The notes beneath the pieces were generated by a model. It saw only the letters and a list, made by a program, of their open reading frames with translations, was not told the DNA's origin and did not search any database. A program made the translations under genes and the position numbers. This document shows, in pieces, positions 1 to 5,268 of a stretch of DNA of 5,268 bases. Origin of the DNA: Alphaproteobacteria bacterium (lineage in GTDB: Bacteria; Pseudomonadota; Alphaproteobacteria; Thalassobaculales; Thalassobaculaceae); the NCBI GenBank assembly GCA_028822575.1, contig JAPKDN010000259.1:1-5268 (forward strand). Reading direction: 5' to 3'. Position 1 is the stretch's first letter. Each line of letters starts with the position of its first letter.

Positions 1-1031
1 TCTGAGTTTCCGGTACCCTTAAACTCCTCAAAGATAACCTCGTCCATGCGAGAGCCCGTGTCGATCAAGGCGGTAGCGATGATCGATAGCGATCCACCTT
101 CCTCGATGTTACGCGCCGCACCAAAAAACCGTTTCGGCCGCTGAAGCGCGTTGGCATCAACGCCGCCCGTCAACACTTTACCAGAGGACGGCACCACGGT
201 GTTATAGGCACGCGCCAGACGGGTGATAGAGTCTAACAGAATCACAACATCCCGCCGGTGCTCCACCAGTCGTTTCGCCTTTTCGATCACCATCTCCGCA
301 ACCGCGACATGCCGGGTTGCTGGTTCATCAAAAGTCGAACTTATGACCTCGCCGTTTACCGTGCGGGCCATGTCCGTTACTTCTTCAGGACGTTCGTCTA
401 TTAGCAAAACCAGCAAATAGACTTCGGGATGGTTTTTGGCGATTGACGTTGCAATATTTTGCAACATCACAGTCTTGCCAGTCCTTGGTGGAGCCACGAC
501 CAAGGCCCGCTGACCCTTGCCGATTGGCGAGATTAAGTCGATTACCCGGCACGTTGGGTCATTCACCTTGCCGCCAACGGCCTCGAGTTCCAGACCGAGC
601 CGTTCCTCGGGGTACAGAGGCGTCAAGTTGTCGAAGTTGATCCGATGGCGAACGACATCTGGGTCCTCGAAATTAATATTATTGACCTTGAGGAGAGCAA
701 AATACCGCTCCCCGTCCTTCGGCGCGCGGATTTGGCCTTCAACAGTATCCCCAGTCCGCAGCCCAAACCGTCGCACCTGGCTTGGTGAGACATAAATGTC
801 ATCTGGCCCCGGTAGGTAATTTGACTCAGGCGAACGCAAGAATCCAAATCCATCTGAGAGCGTCTCAAGGACACCCATTCCATGGATCGCAACATCATTT
901 TCAGCCAACTGCTTCAAAATCGCGAACATCATGTCTTGCTTGCGCAAAACACTAGCGTTCTCAATTTCGAGCTCTTCAGCATAGGCCAGAAGATCGGCGG
1001 GGGTTTTAGTCTTAAGCTCCTGAAGATGCAT
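1..1031 (-). CDS. rho: Transcription termination factor Rho (partial, C-terminus cut by window start)
   Basis: Hexameric RNA-dependent ATPase and translocase that ends transcription in the cytoplasm. Reading the minus strand from ATG at 1031 gives 343 open codons that run off the window. Alphaproteobacterial Rho is about 420 residues, so some 75 are missing. Visible parts in order: N-terminal helical domain (about 1-48); cold-shock-like primary RNA-binding domain with GFGFLR at 61-66 and [15 protein letters not shown] at 78-92; Walker A APPRTGKT at 180-187; catalytic-glutamate segment IDERPEEV at 211-218; Walker B VVILLD ending at D267; Q-loop [10 protein letters not shown] at 281-290; and R-loop KGTGN at 338-342. 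The start is supported by an in-frame TGA two codons upstream and by the family-typical N-terminus ([14 protein letters not shown]). No clear Shine-Dalgarno is visible. It lies downstream of hemE and hemJ on the same strand, after a 210-bp leader that may control it. The identification is close to certain. Confidence 0.98.
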
Positions 1032-1093
1032 TTTGCGTCAGGTCTTTTGCTGATAATGAGGATACAGGGTGAGATCGGCTGATACGCTACAGT

Positions 1094-1154
1094 CTGTCCA
1101 TACGGCATTAAGTATAAGTGCTGGACAGGGGTTTTTGGGGCTAACTGTCCCCAG
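1094..1154 (-). promoter_or_regulatory. rho leader with two mutually exclusive hairpins
   Basis: Three segments in the rho 5' leader can pair in two ways (minus-strand sense). Segment A, CTGGGGACAG (1154-1145), can pair with segment B, CTGTCCAG (1128-1121), as an 8-bp stem with a 2-nt GG bulge. Segment B can instead pair with segment C, TGGACAG (1100-1094), as a perfect 7-bp stem (B bases 1128-1122). Because both use B, only one can form at a time. The pairing potential is seen directly. A role in control of rho is inferred by analogy with E. coli rho, which is autoregulated through its leader. The stems are short, so chance is possible. Confidence 0.35.
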
Positions 1155-1167
1155 CGTACGCTTCGAG

Positions 1168-1196
1168 CATTTACCTAAAGCTGAAGAGAAAGTCAA
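1168..1196 (-). promoter_or_regulatory. Weak candidate promoter for rho
   Basis: On the minus strand, TTGACT (1196-1191) matches the sigma70 -35 consensus at 5 of 6 positions. It is followed by a 17-bp spacer and TAAATG (1173-1168), a poor -10 with 3 of 6 matches. Transcription would begin near 1161, just upstream of the paired leader segments. A better isolated -10, TATACT (1116-1111), lies closer to rho but has no matching -35. rho may also be read through from hemE-hemJ, since no terminator is visible between hemJ and rho. Confidence 0.25.
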
Positions 1197-1241
1197 ACAG
1201 CTAAAATTTATAAGTGATCGCTTTTTTGGAACAACCAGGTT

Positions 1242-1673
1242 TTAGAACGGCTTAAGCACCACAAGAAGGACAATCACGATCATCAACACCGTCGGCGCTT
1301 CGTTAAAGAACCGGAAAAACTTCGCAGAAAGCATATTGGCATCTCGTTCGAAAAACCGGCGCCAGCGCGATAACGCGCCGTGAACTCCAGTCATACCAAC
1401 CAATGCCAGAATCTTCCATTGCATCCAGCCATCCTCGAGATGGCTCGGAACTAAGATTAACATCCAAACACCAAGCCCAAAGCTAGCGATCATCGCTGGA
1501 TTGATGATCGCCCGTATCAATCTGCGCTCCATGATCTTGAGCGTTTCGGACAATTCTGATCCAACAGCAGCATCCGCGTGATAGACAAATAGACGCGGCA
1601 GATAGAGCATTCCCGCCATCCACGCCATGACGCTGATGATATGAAAAGCTTTAATTAGCGGATAAAATTCCAT
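1242..1673 (-). CDS. hemJ: HemJ-type protoporphyrinogen IX oxidase, four-helix membrane protein
   Basis: HemJ family (UPF0093/CopD-like), an inner-membrane haem-binding protein that oxidises protoporphyrinogen IX to protoporphyrin IX, the step before ferrochelatase. The 143-residue product matches the usual family length of about 140-150. Hydrophobic segments lie at about 7-27, 54-74, 86-103 and 126-142. Family features seen include H11 in the first helix (IKAFHIISVMAWMAGM), the LPRLFVYH segment with R28 and H32, the QWK segment with K87, and the C-terminal RFFNEAPTVLMI followed by a terminal KPF. The start is uncertain: ATG at 1673 is preceded directly by an in-frame TTG at 1676. An AGGG lies 10 nt before the ATG but 7 nt before the TTG, so a 144-residue form is possible. 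It starts 27 bp after hemE on the same strand, which supports a haem operon. No other protoporphyrinogen oxidase type is seen in the window. Confidence 0.9.
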   Translation of the reverse strand: MEFYPLIKAFHIISVMAWMAGMLYLPRLFVYHADAAVGSELSETLKIMERRLIRAIINPAMIASFGLGVWMLILVPSHLEDGWMQWKILALVGMTGVHGALSRWRRFFERDANMLSAKFFRFFNEAPTVLMIVIVLLVVLKPF

Positions 1674-1700
1674 CAATGTATCGCCCTGGGAGAATTCGAA

Positions 1701-2738
1701 TTAATCTTGATTAGGTTCGCGTAAGAACTGCGCGAGCTCTTCAACATGCTCCGGCGGCGTAATCGGTATAACACCGTGACCAAGATTAAAAACAAAAGGC
1801 CCACCGCCTAAATGCGTTCTTATCTTGGTGACAGCAGACCGCATTACATCCCCACCAGTGACCAAGGCGATTGGATCCAAATTTCCCTGCACGGGCATAA
1901 GAGGTTGAATTTCCCGAGCAGCCCATTCGGTGGGGACACTAGTATCCAGGGCCACTGCGTCCACACCTGACTGCTCCACGAAGGCTCGATACTGAACGCC
2001 AGCGCCCTTTGGAAACCCTATTATCGGGATCTGCGGATAATCTTTTTTTAACCGGTCGGTGATCCGTCGTATGGGCTGAAGCACCCATGTCTCGAATTGA
2101 TCGGGTGCCAATACGCCCGCCCAGGAATCAAATAACTTCACGATCGAAGCGCCGGCCTCGATCTGAGAGCCCAAATGCCGTATCGTCGCTTCAACCAACA
2201 TATCGATTAGAGCGCTAAACCCTTTCGGATCAGAGAACGCCCACTGTTTTGTTTTCGCGAAGTCTTTGCTCGATCGGCCTTCAACCATATAGGTCGCCAC
2301 CGTCCAGGGAGCACCCGCAAAGCCAATCAAGGCGACATCTTCAGGTAGTTCCTGGCTCACCCTTGAGACAGTCTCGTAAGTGGCTTCAATTTGGGACCAT
2401 GACCTATCTGGTGATAAACGGGATAGATCAACAGAATTTTCTACTGGCTCCAAAACTGGCCCTATCCCCTCCTCGAAATGCAAGGGTTGGCCCAAGCCAT
2501 AAGGAATAATCAGAATATCCGAGAATAAAATTGCCCCGTCTGGGTGAAACCTTCTTATCGGTTGGAGTGTGACTTCTGCAGCTAATTTAGGTGTGAGACA
2601 CAGGTCCATGAATGACCCAGCGTCCGCACGTAATTTCCGATACTCTGGAAGATAACGCCCAGCCTGTCGCATTAGCCAGAACGGGGTTCGCTCCGAAGTA
2701 GCACCACGAAGGACATCGAGAATCAGCTGCTTGGTCAT
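1701..2738 (-). CDS. hemE: Uroporphyrinogen decarboxylase HemE
   Basis: Cytoplasmic TIM-barrel enzyme that removes four carboxyl groups from uroporphyrinogen III to give coproporphyrinogen III. It has no cofactor. The 345 residues equal the normal family length. Signature 1, PFWLMRQAGRYLPEYR, is at 19-34 with substrate-binding R24 and R28. The catalytic aspartate is D74 in FSDILIIP. Signature 2, GFAGAPWTVATYMVEG, is at 139-154 with the conserved Y150. FDSWAG at 203-208, IGFPKGAG at 240-247, QGNLDP at 284-289 and NLGHGVIP at 318-325 with the conserved H321 complete the active-site set. The ATG at 2738 gives the usual short N-terminus (MTKQLILDVLRG). The ribosome site is weak (GGATAGAG, somewhat distant). 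It leads a minus-strand block with hemJ and rho, and faces the putative origin, as hemE does in Caulobacter and Rickettsia. The gene is intact. Confidence 0.98.
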   Translation of the reverse strand: MTKQLILDVLRGATSERTPFWLMRQAGRYLPEYRKLRADAGSFMDLCLTPKLAAEVTLQPIRRFHPDGAILFSDILIIPYGLGQPLHFEEGIGPVLEPVENSVDLSRLSPDRSWSQIEATYETVSRVSQELPEDVALIGFAGAPWTVATYMVEGRSSKDFAKTKQWAFSDPKGFSALIDMLVEATIRHLGSQIEAGASIVKLFDSWAGVLAPDQFETWVLQPIRRITDRLKKDYPQIPIIGFPKGAGVQYRAFVEQSGVDAVALDTSVPTEWAAREIQPLMPVQGNLDPIALVTGGDVMRSAVTKIRTHLGGGPFVFNLGHGVIPITPPEHVEELAQFLREPNQD

Positions 2739-2761
2739 GGGAATTGCTCTATCCGGTTAAG

Positions 2762-2787
2762 GCTAAAATATACAGCTAAAATATAGT
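2762..2787. repeat. Tandem 13-mer repeat in AT-rich block, candidate DNA unwinding element
   Basis: Two adjacent 13-bp units, GCTAAAATATACA (2762-2774) and GCTAAAATATAGT (2775-2787), share their first 11 bases. The next 13 bp (2788-2800, GAGATGAAATTAA) is AT-rich but only loosely similar. AT-rich 13-mers next to DnaA boxes are the classical form of an origin unwinding element, as in E. coli oriC. The repeat is seen directly and the role is inferred. Read on the minus strand, each unit contains TATATT, a possible -10 for hemE (2772-2767 and 2785-2780), though I find no good -35 for either. The block may therefore serve both purposes. Confidence 0.55.
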
Positions 2788-2823
2788 GAGATGAAATTAA
2801 TTGAAGTTGTAGTGGTTAGCTGT
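2772..2823. repeat. 8-bp inverted repeat around the AT-rich block
   Basis: ACAGCTAA at 2772-2779 and TTAGCTGT at 2816-2823 are perfect inverse complements separated by 36 bp of mostly AT-rich sequence. The left arm overlaps the junction of the two 13-mers. It could form a long-loop stem in single-stranded DNA or in the hemE leader. A function is not demonstrated. Confidence 0.4.
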
Positions 2824-2842
2824 GATTCTTGGGGATTAATGA

Positions 2843-2851
2843 TTGTTCACA
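2843..2851 (+). promoter_or_regulatory. DnaA-box-like 9-mer, one mismatch
   Basis: TTGTTCACA differs from the DnaA consensus TTATNCACA only at position 3. It is followed at an 11-bp offset, about one helical turn, by TTCTCCACC (2854-2862, two mismatches), so the pair could be bound on the same face of the helix. It lies 56 bp from the 13-mer repeat, in the expected order for an origin. A 5-bp inverted repeat, CAGGT/ACCTG (2850-2854 and 2860-2864), overlaps the pair. Confidence 0.5.
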
Positions 2852-2876
2852 GGTTCTCCACCTGCAGGGCCTAATT

Positions 2877-2906
2877 CTGACAACGCGCATCGGCATTGGA
2901 TAGAAT
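2877..2906 (+). promoter_or_regulatory. Sigma70-type promoter for the ppsR-maf-coaE-dnaQ block
   Basis: CTGACA (2877-2882) matches the -35 consensus at 5 of 6 positions. It is followed by an 18-bp spacer and TAGAAT (2901-2906), matching the -10 at 5 of 6. This is the best plus-strand promoter I can see in the gap. Transcription would start near 2913, leaving a leader of about 230 nt before the first gene and crossing the right half of the putative origin. A weaker alternative is TTGATC (3007-3012), 17 bp, TAACAA (3030-3035). Confidence 0.5.
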
Positions 2907-3000
2907 GTGGGAAAACCGGACGAAAGTGTTTTCGCACGTCATTGTGAGTCTCGGGAATAAAAAGCATAAGTCGGCCCCGGCTTTTTTGTCCACGCTTCGC

Positions 3001-3024
3001 GCGCTGTTGATCATCAGACAGCGC
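3001..3024. repeat. 24-bp inverted repeat inside the putative origin
   Basis: GCGCTGT (3001-3007) and ACAGCGC (3018-3024) are perfect 7-bp inverse complements around a 10-nt centre that contains the palindrome TGATCA. It is not followed by a T-run, so it is not a rho-independent terminator. It could be a binding site for a dimeric protein, or a hairpin in the leader of the rightward transcript. An 8-bp palindrome, AAGCGCTT (3036-3043), lies 11 bp further on. Confidence 0.45.
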
Positions 3025-3096
3025 CACTCTAACAAAAGCGCTTGTAATAACCGTGAAAGAAGGACGGCTTACATCTTTGGTGTTCCGGATGGCATG

Positions 3097-3105
3097 TTAT
3101 CCCCA
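3097..3105 (+). promoter_or_regulatory. DnaA-box-like 9-mer, one mismatch
   Basis: TTATCCCCA differs from TTATCCACA only at position 7. It marks the right side of the putative origin, 38 bp before the preferred start of the PPDK regulatory gene. The longer reading of that gene, from GTG at 3053, would place this box inside coding sequence, one reason to prefer the later start. Confidence 0.4.
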
Positions 3106-3142
3106 TAATGAGACTTCTGAACAAGGCCAGGTACAAGTGGTG

Positions 3143-3964
3143 ATGACGGATCAAATCCATATACACTTGGTTTCTGATGCCACTGGGGAGACTAACCATC
3201 AGATAGCCCGCGCCTGTATGGTTCAATTTCAAGGCGTGCGCCCAACCGAGCATGTGTGGTCCCTGGTTCGAACCAGCAGCCACATCGAGAAGATTCTGAC
3301 GGCCGTTGAGGCCTATTGCGGTCCTGTGTTTTTCACCCTGGTAGACGCCGACCTAAGACGCCAGTTGACCGAAGGGTGTCAGAACCTCAAGGTGCCTTGC
3401 GTGTCAGTTCTTGATCCCGTTCTTGATGCATTAAGAGCCTACCTCGGCGTGGAAAGCCGCGGAATGCCTGGGCGGCAACACAGAATGGACGCCGCGTATT
3501 TCGAGCGTATCGAAGCCATGGACTTCACATTGGTTCATGATGATGGGCAGCTAACCAATGACCTTGCCGGCGCGGACATCATCATCCTGGGTGTGTCGCG
3601 AACCTCAAAGACGCCGACATCGTTATACCTGGCTAATCGAGGGTACAAGACCGCTAACATCCCGTTGGTTCCGAATGTTCCTCTACCCGATCAGGTAATA
3701 AAAGCAAGCGGCCCTTTTATCGTCGGACTAACCAATGACCCGGTCCGCCTGACCCAAGTTCGACGGACCCGGATGCTGATGCTTAACCAAAAGGATGAGA
3801 CTGACTATATCGACCTTGAAAAGGTACGAAGAGAAGTGACTGACGCACGTCGGTTGTTTAGAAAACAGGGGTGGCCAGTCATCGACGTGACCCGGCGATC
3901 AATCGAAGAAACAGCGGCCACGGTGTTGCAACACTACGCACAGTTTAAAGGGAAAGAAGGCTAA
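3143..3964 (+). CDS. ppsR: Pyruvate, phosphate dikinase regulatory protein (DUF299 / RP001 family)
   Basis: PPSRP family: bifunctional kinase/phosphorylase that inactivates pyruvate, phosphate dikinase (or PEP synthase) by ADP-dependent phosphorylation of a threonine and reactivates it by Pi-dependent phosphorolysis. It acts in the cytoplasm at the pyruvate/PEP node. From ATG 3143 the protein has 273 residues, the usual length. Visible are the N-terminal HLVSDATGET (8-17), the P-loop-like LGVSRTSKT (149-157), and the conserved continuation TPTSLYLANRGYKTANIPLV with VGLTNDPVRL at 194-203. An in-frame GTG at 3053 would add 30 residues (MKEGRLTSLVF...) that do not resemble the family, so ATG 3143 is preferred. 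In-frame GTG codons at 3137 and 3140 are close alternatives. The upstream ribosome site is weak (AGG at 3129-3131). It is first in a tight operon with maf. Whether its partner is PPDK or PEP synthase cannot be told here; PPDK is the usual partner in Alphaproteobacteria. The symbol is tentative. Confidence 0.93.
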   Translation: MTDQIHIHLVSDATGETNHQIARACMVQFQGVRPTEHVWSLVRTSSHIEKILTAVEAYCGPVFFTLVDADLRRQLTEGCQNLKVPCVSVLDPVLDALRAYLGVESRGMPGRQHRMDAAYFERIEAMDFTLVHDDGQLTNDLAGADIIILGVSRTSKTPTSLYLANRGYKTANIPLVPNVPLPDQVIKASGPFIVGLTNDPVRLTQVRRTRMLMLNQKDETDYIDLEKVRREVTDARRLFRKQGWPVIDVTRRSIEETAATVLQHYAQFKGKEG

Positions 3965-3970
3965 TCGACG

Positions 3971-4600
3971 ATGGCTGATGCGCTCATGGGTTCAAAGACT
4001 GGAAAAAAGGAACTTATCCTAGCGTCAAGCAGCGCGACCAGGGCGAGTATTCTCCAGGGTGCCGGCTTGGTTTTCAAGATCGAACGGCCAACGGTTGATG
4101 AATCCACCATCCGCCGGTTGATGATCGCGTCGGGGGCCGATGTGGAGTCTGGCGCGGCGCGGCTTGCCGACCTCAAGGCCCTGGAGATTAGCGCCAAACA
4201 CCCCGCTTGCTTGGTCGTGGGTGCAGATCAAATCTTAGAAAGCGAAGGGGTCTGGTTTGAAAAGCCGGTCAATCGTGGTCAGGCGCGCAAACAGCTCGAA
4301 CAATTATCTGGTGGACAGCATCGCTTGATAAGCAGTGTCGCCGTGGCGCTTAACAATTCTGTGATATGGCGCCATACGGATCACGCCGTTCTGAATATGC
4401 GAACGCTCAGCGAGTGTTTCCTGGCCGCTTATCTCCAAATAATGGGTGACCGTCTGCTTAGTTCAGTCGGTGGGTATCAGATTGAGAGCCTCGGTGCGCA
4501 GTTATTCGACTCGGTGACTGGCGATCACTACACGATTTTAGGATTGCCTCTCCTGCCCGTCCTCAAGTTTCTTCGCGAAAAAGACGTTTTGGAAACCTGA
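3971..4600 (+). CDS. maf: Maf family nucleoside triphosphate pyrophosphatase
   Basis: Maf/HAM1-fold cytoplasmic house-cleaning enzyme that hydrolyses non-standard or modified nucleoside triphosphates to the monophosphate and pyrophosphate. The 209 residues are close to the family size of about 190-210. Motifs: LILASSSATRASIL at 15-28 (phosphate-binding loop, S19-S21 and R24), VVGADQIL at 82-89 with the catalytic D86, FEKP at 96-99, LSGGQHRLISSVAV at 112-125, GGYQIES at 167-173, and the C-terminal GDHYTILGLPLLPVLKFL at 184-201. Substrate preference (dTTP/UTP type or m7GTP type) cannot be assigned safely. It starts 6 bp after the PPDK regulator stop, with GAAGG upstream. ATG 3986 is an alternative start that removes five residues and also keeps every motif. 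In Caulobacter-type origin clusters aroE usually follows maf, but here coaE follows directly. Confidence 0.94.
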   Translation: MADALMGSKTGKKELILASSSATRASILQGAGLVFKIERPTVDESTIRRLMIASGADVESGAARLADLKALEISAKHPACLVVGADQILESEGVWFEKPVNRGQARKQLEQLSGGQHRLISSVAVALNNSVIWRHTDHAVLNMRTLSECFLAAYLQIMGDRLLSSVGGYQIESLGAQLFDSVTGDHYTILGLPLLPVLKFLREKDVLET

Positions 4601-4604
4601 TAGC

Positions 4605-5210
4605 ATGCGAATTATTGGCCTAACAGGATCGATCGCCATGGGCAAAAGCACGGCGGCACGGATGTTGCGGTGTCTAGGGCTCCCGATCCATGACGCCGAT
4701 GCTTGTGTCCACCGCCTATTCGCGCAGTCGGGGCGGGCGGTAGCACCAATTTCAGAGGCTTTTCCAGGCGTGGTCGTGAATGGCTCTGTCGACCGAAACA
4801 AACTCGGAGCCAAGGTGTTCGGTAAGCCCGATGAGCTCAACCGGCTGGAAGCGATCGTTCATCCATTGGTACGAGATGAACGTGATCGCTTTCTCTCGGA
4901 AAACCGCCGCCGACGCTCGCGATTGGTCGTGCTCGATGTGCCCTTACTATATGAAACAAAGGGACAGGGCCTTTGTGATAAGGTCATCGTGGTTAGCGCG
5001 CCAGCATTTCTCCAGCGCCGCCGGGCCTTGGTGCGCCCAGAGATGACCACTGATAAACTTGCACTGATTCTGGCCCGTCAGATGCCAGATCATAAAAAGC
5101 GCCAACTGGCCGACGTGGTTATCTCCACGGGGCTTGGGTTTTCGGATACACGTCGCAGGCTTGCACGATACATTCACCGCCTACAGGAATTGCCAGGCGC
5201 GGGCCGATAG
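4605..5210 (+). CDS. coaE: Dephospho-CoA kinase CoaE
   Basis: P-loop kinase that phosphorylates the 3'-hydroxyl of dephospho-CoA with ATP, the last step of coenzyme A synthesis, in the cytoplasm. The 201 residues are normal for the family. Walker A GSIAMGKST is at 8-16 after an opening MRIIGLT. The conserved DAD (30-32) follows in LPIHDADACVHRLF. LEAIVHPLVR (81-90), VVLDVPLLYET (108-118) for the substrate side, and RQMPDHKKRQLADVVISTG (158-176), the conserved C-terminal adenine-side segment, complete the set. The ATG start puts the P-loop at the very N-terminus, as expected. It begins 4 bp after the maf stop, implying translational coupling. Its stop codon overlaps the ribosome site of dnaQ. 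The sequence appears intact. Confidence 0.97.
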   Translation: MRIIGLTGSIAMGKSTAARMLRCLGLPIHDADACVHRLFAQSGRAVAPISEAFPGVVVNGSVDRNKLGAKVFGKPDELNRLEAIVHPLVRDERDRFLSENRRRRSRLVVLDVPLLYETKGQGLCDKVIVVSAPAFLQRRRALVRPEMTTDKLALILARQMPDHKKRQLADVVISTGLGFSDTRRRLARYIHRLQELPGAGR

Positions 5211-5213
5211 GAG
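5209..5213 (+). promoter_or_regulatory. Ribosome binding site fixing the GTG start of dnaQ
   Basis: AGGAG at 5209-5213 overlaps the TAG stop of coaE (5208-5210) and sits 7 nt before GTG 5221. This is the strongest Shine-Dalgarno in the window and supports a GTG start for dnaQ with coupling to coaE translation. Confidence 0.75.
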
Positions 5214-5220
5214 ACATCGG

Positions 5221-5268
5221 GTGAGGGAAATCGTCCTAGATACGGAAACCACGGGGCTCGACGCCTTG
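5221..5268 (+). CDS. dnaQ: DNA polymerase III epsilon subunit, proofreading exonuclease (partial, 5' end only)
   Basis: The 3'-5' proofreading exonuclease of the replicative polymerase. Only 16 codons are in the window, reading (M)REIVLDTETTGLDAL. The ExoI motif DTETTGL, with the metal-binding Asp and Glu, lies right after the N-terminal strand, exactly as in DnaQ. Context supports this: dnaQ commonly follows coaE beside the alphaproteobacterial origin. The start is GTG 5221, backed by AGGAG 7 nt upstream. The gap to coaE is 10 bp. Other DEDD exonucleases share the motif, so the short fragment alone would not be decisive. Confidence 0.88.
   Translation, partial: MREIVLDTETTGLDAL

Follow-up and report, generated by a model that had tools for sequence, protein, structure and literature searches.

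The question raised by this locus is whether the non-coding DNA between hemE and a gene of the RP001 family is the chromosomal origin of replication (oriC) and, if so, how it would be opened and controlled. The window, i.e. the whole stretch of 5,268 nucleotides that was analysed, carries on its minus strand rho (partial), a hemJ-like UPF0093 gene and hemE (uroporphyrinogen decarboxylase, PF01208, 1701–2738), followed by a gap of 404 nt at 2739–3142. On the plus strand after the gap come a Kinase-PPPase gene (3143–3961; PF03618, COG1806, RP001/CC_0001 family), maf, coaE and the opening codons of a dnaQ-like gene, the latter named by its likeness to a frame in a relative; RP001 has been named as COG1806/DUF299 (PMC1914354). 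Open reading frames and domain matches thus confirm the 404-bp non-coding gap and the diverging genes described in a sequence-only reading of this DNA. A relative (G010) has the order gidA–parS–mnmE … rho–hemJ–hemE–gap–PF03618–maf–coaE–dnaQ, its gene names being taken from a reading of the translations. The gap has 54.5% AT, against 48% in the whole window.

From the sequence comparisons described here, we consider the gap at 2739–3142 to be the chromosomal oriC, with a probability of about 0.94, in an organism whose nearest named relatives are Nisaea and Thalassobaculum. The sequence-only reading had proposed the same, and the proposal is well supported because the synteny is conserved in relatives, a parS site lies nearby, two closed genomes show a GC-skew flip at the gap, and DnaA-like sites are in excess. 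The genome-level evidence (parS, dnaA and GC skew) comes from relatives and not from the window's own chromosome. The closest genomes are three assemblies at 84–88% identity (G001, G010 and G009), followed by two metagenome-assembled genomes (MAGs) at 72–73%, and by Nisaea and Thalassobaculum at 68–71%. Among PF03618 proteins the nearest match has 96% identity, and the longest contig of its cluster is 20 kb.

Several other identities for this DNA were considered and rejected. In the window every Rfam family stayed below its gathering score, leaving a structured RNA in the gap without a match, and neither a megablast of the window against a plasmid collection nor a blastn of the gap against a phage collection returned a match, so that plasmid and phage DNA were rejected as well. 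Two small open reading frames inside the gap (2836–3027 and 2896–3108) show little conservation over much of their length in the alignment of the window with G001, G010 and G009, with 8 of 76 columns invariant in 2865–2940 and 18 of 128 in 2963–3090. The PF03618 frame could also start upstream, at 3053, but this extension crosses the conserved DnaA box at 3097–3105, and the ATG at 3143 is preferred; open frames upstream of the start are also found in relatives, but their sequence varies.

In order to place the gap among its homologues, an alignment search with PF03618 was performed, which confirmed 581 relatives, the best 80 of which were taken as genome loci. hemE was present in the fetched stretch in 76 of these best 80 and is divergent from PF03618 in all 76; the four loci without it (L006, L042, L043 and L057) were left out, and in L042 hemE sits at the opposite end of the circular record. 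Together with the window these loci form a set of 77 gaps, extended to 79 with G010 and G009, and across the 79 gaps from this best-80-of-581 selection the length ranges from 326 to 603 nt, all except the shortest measuring at least 392 nt. The PF03618 and hemE frames of G009 are each split into two or more BLAST pieces, so this assembly may hold errors. The gaps are related to each other and therefore not independent, and the shuffle statistics given below ignore this kinship.

No perfect DnaA box (TTATCCACA) is found in the whole window, as had been noted before. The sequence-only reading had counted two boxes with one mismatch in the gap, of which one is confirmed: TTATCCCCA at 3097–3105 (plus strand), the best box of the gap, which has a box at the same column in all four closest sequences. 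It is the sole one-mismatch site in the gap, another being located inside hemE at 2032. The second, probably TTGTTCACA at 2843–2851 (plus strand, detected by the matrix described below), has two mismatches and becomes a one-mismatch site only under the looser consensus TTATNCACA. With TTCTCCACC at 2854–2862 (plus strand, two mismatches, DnaA-like at this column in 4/4 sequences) it does form the reported pair at 11-bp spacing. Closer to hemE, the minus strand carries a conserved box, TAATCCCCA at 2830–2838 (two mismatches, a box at this column in 4/4 closest sequences), abutted by a weak second DnaA-like site, AGAATCACA at 2821–2829, which has four mismatches to TTATCCACA in a count by eye and holds a GANTC at 2824–2828. 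The remaining sites are TTATTCCCG at 2952–2960 (minus strand), a degenerate matrix site inside a conserved block (2941–2962) and adjoining the GANTC at 2946–2950; TTGTCCACG at 2986–2994 (plus strand, two mismatches, also found by the matrix); and TCTTTCACG at 3052–3060 (minus strand), the weakest of the seven matrix sites with 7.05 bits, just above the threshold.

Allowing up to two mismatches, the whole window has 20 sites against 12.3 expected, a number reached by 6 of 200 shuffles, and seven of the 20 fall in the gap, which makes up 7.7% of the window. A DnaA matrix was trained on the 78 other gaps, and its consensus is close to TTATCC(A/C)CA. It finds 497 sites in the training gaps, or 6.4 per gap versus 0.98 in shuffles, the value of 6.4 being so by construction. 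In the window gap, which is outside the training set, there are seven matrix sites versus 0.76 in shuffles, with none of 1,000 shuffles as high, and the rest of the window has 0.58 per 404 nt at the same threshold; this test is not fully independent, since G001, G010 and G009 are in the training set and shared descent adds to the score. At 7 bits or more, the window gap has seven sites and those of G001, G010 and G009 four, eight and four, while one-mismatch boxes number one in the window, one in G001, two in G009 and three in G010. Perfect boxes occur in 17 of the 77 gaps (window plus 76 loci from the best 80 of 581), and TCCACA occurs 174 times in the 79 gaps of the same selection versus 16.6 expected; in the window gap TCCACA is absent and TCCCCA occurs twice.

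The same four-sequence alignment, in which the segments were picked after viewing, places most of the conservation near hemE. The invariant columns number 19 of 33 in 2768–2800, 26 of 38 in 2801–2838 and 10 of 26 in 2839–2864; elsewhere, 12 of 22 are invariant in 2941–2962 and 9 of 16 in 3091–3106, with the low values already given for the intervening segments. The conserved core at 2768–2838 (with boxes up to 2862) is formed by AT-rich DNA, then a G/T tract free of C, then the paired weak DnaA boxes, and in many relatives the order inward from hemE is AT-rich DNA, a G/T-rich tract, a weak box often with GANTC, and a good box. Within the window, AT content is highest in the 50 nt that start at 2764 (78% AT). 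An AT-rich pair of 13-mers had been reported next to hemE, and a direct pair is indeed there, the exact match being the 11-mer GCTAAAATATA (copies at 2762–2772 and 2775–2785), proposed as an unwinding element; such a pair within 20 nt appears in 9 of 5,000 shuffles of the gap. AT-richness near 2762–2785 is common to the relatives but the repeat is not, since a pair of this type is present in only 5 of the 79 gaps of the best-80-of-581 set, including the window, and is absent from the three closest relatives. Given this lack of conservation among the gaps, the 13-mer pair was rejected as the element that would define unwinding.

The G/T-rich tract (TTGAAGTTGTAGTGGTT, 2801–2817, plus strand), which is free of C and resembles a DnaA-trio element when read 3′–5′ away from the box, has a similar counterpart at the same place and on the same strand in many relatives. 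A column profile anchored on the box could be built from the 35 of 79 gaps with the strict box pattern (30 after removal of redundancy), the other 44, including the Azospirillum-type gaps, falling outside the profile. In these 30 gaps C accounts for 0–10% per column from −30 to −14. Within the first 200 nt, TAGT followed by A/G/T and G is found on the plus strand in 36 of the 79 gaps and on the minus strand in five, against a mean of 8.5 and a maximum of 14 in shuffles; beyond the first 200 nt it is found in a single gap on either strand. Runs of three GT triplets occur on the plus strand in 17 of the 79 gaps and on the minus strand in none, versus 0.2 in shuffles (both counts refer to the best-80-of-581 set). 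The G/T tract is therefore specific for strand and place, although these patterns miss some gaps.

A different explanation would be that the gap is a divergent promoter and regulatory region only, where the DnaA-like sites control transcription and the true origin lies elsewhere. The promoters of hemE and of the PF03618 gene must presumably sit in this gap, DnaA is also a transcription factor in Caulobacter (PMC2877005), and the one-mismatch boxes in the gap number just one. Against this, many relatives preserve a gap of a few hundred nucleotides with an ordered module of AT-rich DNA, GT tract and boxes, parS is near, and in two closed genomes the sign of the skew changes there (see below), so we regard a purely regulatory role as very unlikely.

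Many bacteria have their oriC beside dnaA, and an origin at or near dnaA or parAB instead of the gap has to be weighed with the genome-level data. parS was searched for in 22 genomes with the motif that we take to be TGTTTCACGTGAAACA, allowing at most one mismatch in eight of them and exact matches in 14. It was found in 21 of the 22, always on the contig of the gap, with the nearest copy at 5.2–26.8 kb and within about 11 kb in 19 of the 21; one genome (G013) has one further copy on another contig. Candidatus Endolissoclinum faulkneri L2 (Ca. E. faulkneri, G007) yielded no parS in this search, and a reversed control pattern is absent from every genome but this one. In almost all alphaproteobacteria surveyed, parAB is described as near the origin, with some exceptions in Rhodospirillales (PMC8116508). 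The short distance to parS would also fit an origin at parAB, and the gaps themselves are poor in one-mismatch boxes (one to three in about 0.4 kb, in seven of the eight relatives where the gap was counted alongside dnaA). However, among the 14 relatives in which dnaA was sought, dnaA (or its remnant in L2) shares the contig of the gap in eight, at a distance of about 105 kb to 1.85 Mb, and is on another contig in six. The surroundings of dnaA hold no perfect box and zero to three one-mismatch boxes in 1.6–3.5 kb (eight relatives); the cluster of perfect boxes near dnaA that the sequence-only reading had named as counter-evidence was not seen in these eight, and an origin at dnaA or parAB appears extremely unlikely. 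The distance between dnaA and the gap is fairly constant, about 105–170 kb, in G004, G008, G020, G021, G027 and G031, and 1.85 Mb in G006.

Stretches of 20 kb from relatives' genomes were sampled for GC skew, a sampling that cannot by itself separate the gap from parS because the two are only 5–27 kb apart. In the closed genome G027, which measures 4.746 Mb and has its gap near 2.372 Mb, 10 of the 11 stretches between 260 kb and 2.34 Mb have a negative skew and all 16 remaining ones a positive skew, including the gap-holding stretch at +0.003. In Ca. E. faulkneri L2, whose base 1 is inside the gap, the skew is positive in seven of the eight stretches that follow base 1 and negative in 9 of the 12 that precede it. 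In G031 the skew changes near 1.05–1.1 Mb, where the gap also lies (1.06 Mb), but the signal is noisy and there are contrary stretches elsewhere, and in G006 (CP070634.1, a MAG labelled as a chromosome) no clear flip was found in 20 sampled stretches (L089–L108); this MAG may be misassembled or simply weak in skew. The results in G006 and G031, together with a window gap that has a single one-mismatch box and neither a perfect box nor TCCACA nor an IHF consensus, were counted against the oriC reading. The skew minimum inside the window, near 2500, was set aside as evidence for an origin because gene orientation alone predicts it.

That the locus is a relic, in which the synteny persists while initiation has moved in this species, could draw on the missing TCCACA, on the single one-mismatch box (as in G001, against two in G009 and three in G010) and on the fact that dnaA itself can be lost, as in Ca. 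E. faulkneri L2 (PMC3851785), but it seems extremely improbable, given that 2801–2838 is invariant at 26 of 38 columns versus 8 of 76 in 2865–2940 in the four closest sequences and that the window's matrix sites are not weaker than those of its relatives.

Returning to the reading of the gap as oriC, the order of its core recalls the DnaA-trios, which are 3′-GAT-5′ repeats adjoining a DnaA box, and for which the published search uses a spacer of at most 16 nt and at least three triplets with a middle adenine (PMC8287927). As run here, the rule accepted a box with at most two mismatches, a spacer of 0–16 nt and at least three NAN trios, anywhere in the gap. The conserved box and tract at 2801–2838 do not belong to the strict DnaA-trios, because the spacer is 17 nt and there are no three consecutive NAN triplets: read on the opposite strand from the box at 2830–2838, the sequence after 17 nt is GAT GTT GAA GTT AAT TAA. 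Two other boxes of the window gap (2854–2862 and 2986–2994) do pass the rule, with triplets that are poorly conserved. A match is found in 44 of the 79 gaps of the best-80-of-581 set versus 11.3 in shuffles, an excess partly inflated because real gaps hold more boxes than shuffles; matches with at least one GAT number six versus 1.7, and those with two GAT number two versus none. The arrangement shares with the basal unwinding system of Bacillus subtilis (PMC8287927) a pair of boxes with the better-matching one farther from the tract, and a repeat tract read 3′-GAT-5′ away from the box and followed by AT-rich DNA. It differs in the spacer of 17 nt instead of at most 16, and in the triplets GAT GTT GAA GTT, which do not have an adenine in every middle position. 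In our view, the conserved G/T tract is a likely functional relative of the DnaA-trios rather than an established member.

In the mechanism that we propose, DnaA would bind the paired weak boxes at 2821–2838 (minus strand), and also the weak boxes at 2843–2862, 2952–2960, 2986–2994 and 3097–3105. From the box pair it would extend leftwards onto the G/T-rich tract at 2801–2817 and open the AT-rich stretch at about 2756–2800 beside hemE, where the helicase would be loaded, and forks would leave oriC both ways. Gene order, sequence conservation and the excess of DnaA-like sites are observed here, and the nearness of parS and the skew flip in relatives only; that DnaA binds these boxes, that unwinding runs in this direction, that the helicase is loaded there and that the gap is active as an origin in this species is our inference. 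More tentatively, and with the odds somewhat against it, the origins of this group might have an unwinding module of a variant kind, a relaxed version of the DnaA-trio system, in which a nearly C-free G/T tract lies about 17 nt from a good box, behind an abutting weak box, and DnaA assembles without an adenine in every triplet, in a setting of GANTC enrichment and no full CtrA sites.

Compared with known origins, the window gap is very probably a typical example of the hemE/COG1806 type, as it is bounded by divergent hemE and COG1806 genes and its DnaA sites exceed chance by the matrix, with no perfect and one one-mismatch box. The Caulobacter crescentus origin, Cori, has the same boundary genes (hemE and CC_0001, COG1806) and also a length of 404 bp (PMC1914354), as well as an AT-rich region and DnaA boxes that are weak, not strong (G- and W-boxes, PMC4468827). 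The Rickettsia prowazekii origin is likewise bounded by hemE (RP_885) and RP_001, with a comparable length of 384 bp (PMC1914354), but it has 82.6% AT in contrast to the 54.5% of the window gap. A limited literature search found no experimentally mapped origin in a close relative.

The window gap differs from Cori in its control sites: neither the CtrA sites nor the IHF site of a Caulobacter-type, CtrA-controlled origin is present in it. Cori has five CtrA sites, whereas a full one (TTAA-N7-TTAA) is found neither in the window, in agreement with the sequence-only reading, nor in the other 78 gaps of the best-80-of-581 set (0 in 79 versus 0.6 expected); three one-mismatch matches in the window all lie outside the gap. 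The looser TTWW-N7-TTWW occurs 50 times in 21 of the 79 gaps versus 22 expected, and not in the window gap, so that some relatives may have weak CtrA-like sites. The IHF consensus WATCAN5WTR is also absent from the window gap and is found six times in the 79 gaps versus 5.6 expected; with counts at expectation, an involvement of IHF based on site excess was rejected. In nine relatives, several of them draft assemblies, CtrA scored above the family cut-off in four, GcrA in seven and RAMA (CcrM-type) in seven. Rhodospirillum centenum and Magnetospirillum magneticum reportedly grow and survive no worse after losing CtrA (PMC8116508), and parts of the CtrA pathway are described as missing in Rhodospirillales (PMC2877005), and missing CtrA sites are therefore expected here. 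The lack of perfect boxes and CtrA sites, previously taken as unusual, is thus ordinary in this group, where a perfect box is found in 17 of 77 gaps and a full CtrA site in none of 79. Initiation control probably does differ from that of Caulobacter, in line with the published picture of the group.

GANTC is about twice as frequent as expected in the 79 gaps of the best-80-of-581 set (317 versus 162, present in 76 of them), and in 18 of 72 gaps a copy is found no more than 12 nt away from the first box-like GTGGAT/GGGGAT. The two copies in the window gap (1.35 expected) are unremarkable, and across the window (1–5268) the motif is rarer than expected, with 14 versus 25.4 and all 200 shuffles having at least 14. 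GANTC is described as enriched in alphaproteobacterial intergenic regions generally (PMC8116508).

The gaps of Ca. E. faulkneri L2 and of G019, which is probably strain L5, share with the window an AT-rich stretch, a GATGTTGTT tract and a GGGGATTA box in the same order, and differ from it in a GC content of 24–26% and, for L2, in a decayed dnaA and the absence of a detected parS. The dnaA pseudogene of L2 and the intact gene of L5 have already been published (PMC3851785); in our data, the L2 locus (L087, G007:C1:723023-723438) is a two-piece match with internal stops and that of G019 (L198) is intact. The origin core is kept in both aligned gaps, which as two genomes give no statistics, and boxes with at most one mismatch number six in G019 (two perfect) and four in L2 (one perfect).

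These findings locate a very probable origin in a lineage represented here chiefly by metagenome assemblies, and indicate that its seemingly odd initiation control is the norm among its relatives. If the variant module is real, the published trio search rule misses this relaxed form. Ca. Endolissoclinum, with dnaA lost in one genome and kept in a related one, offers a natural comparison, and the comparative set of gaps yields a testable core, at 2768–2862, for the opening of such origins by DnaA.
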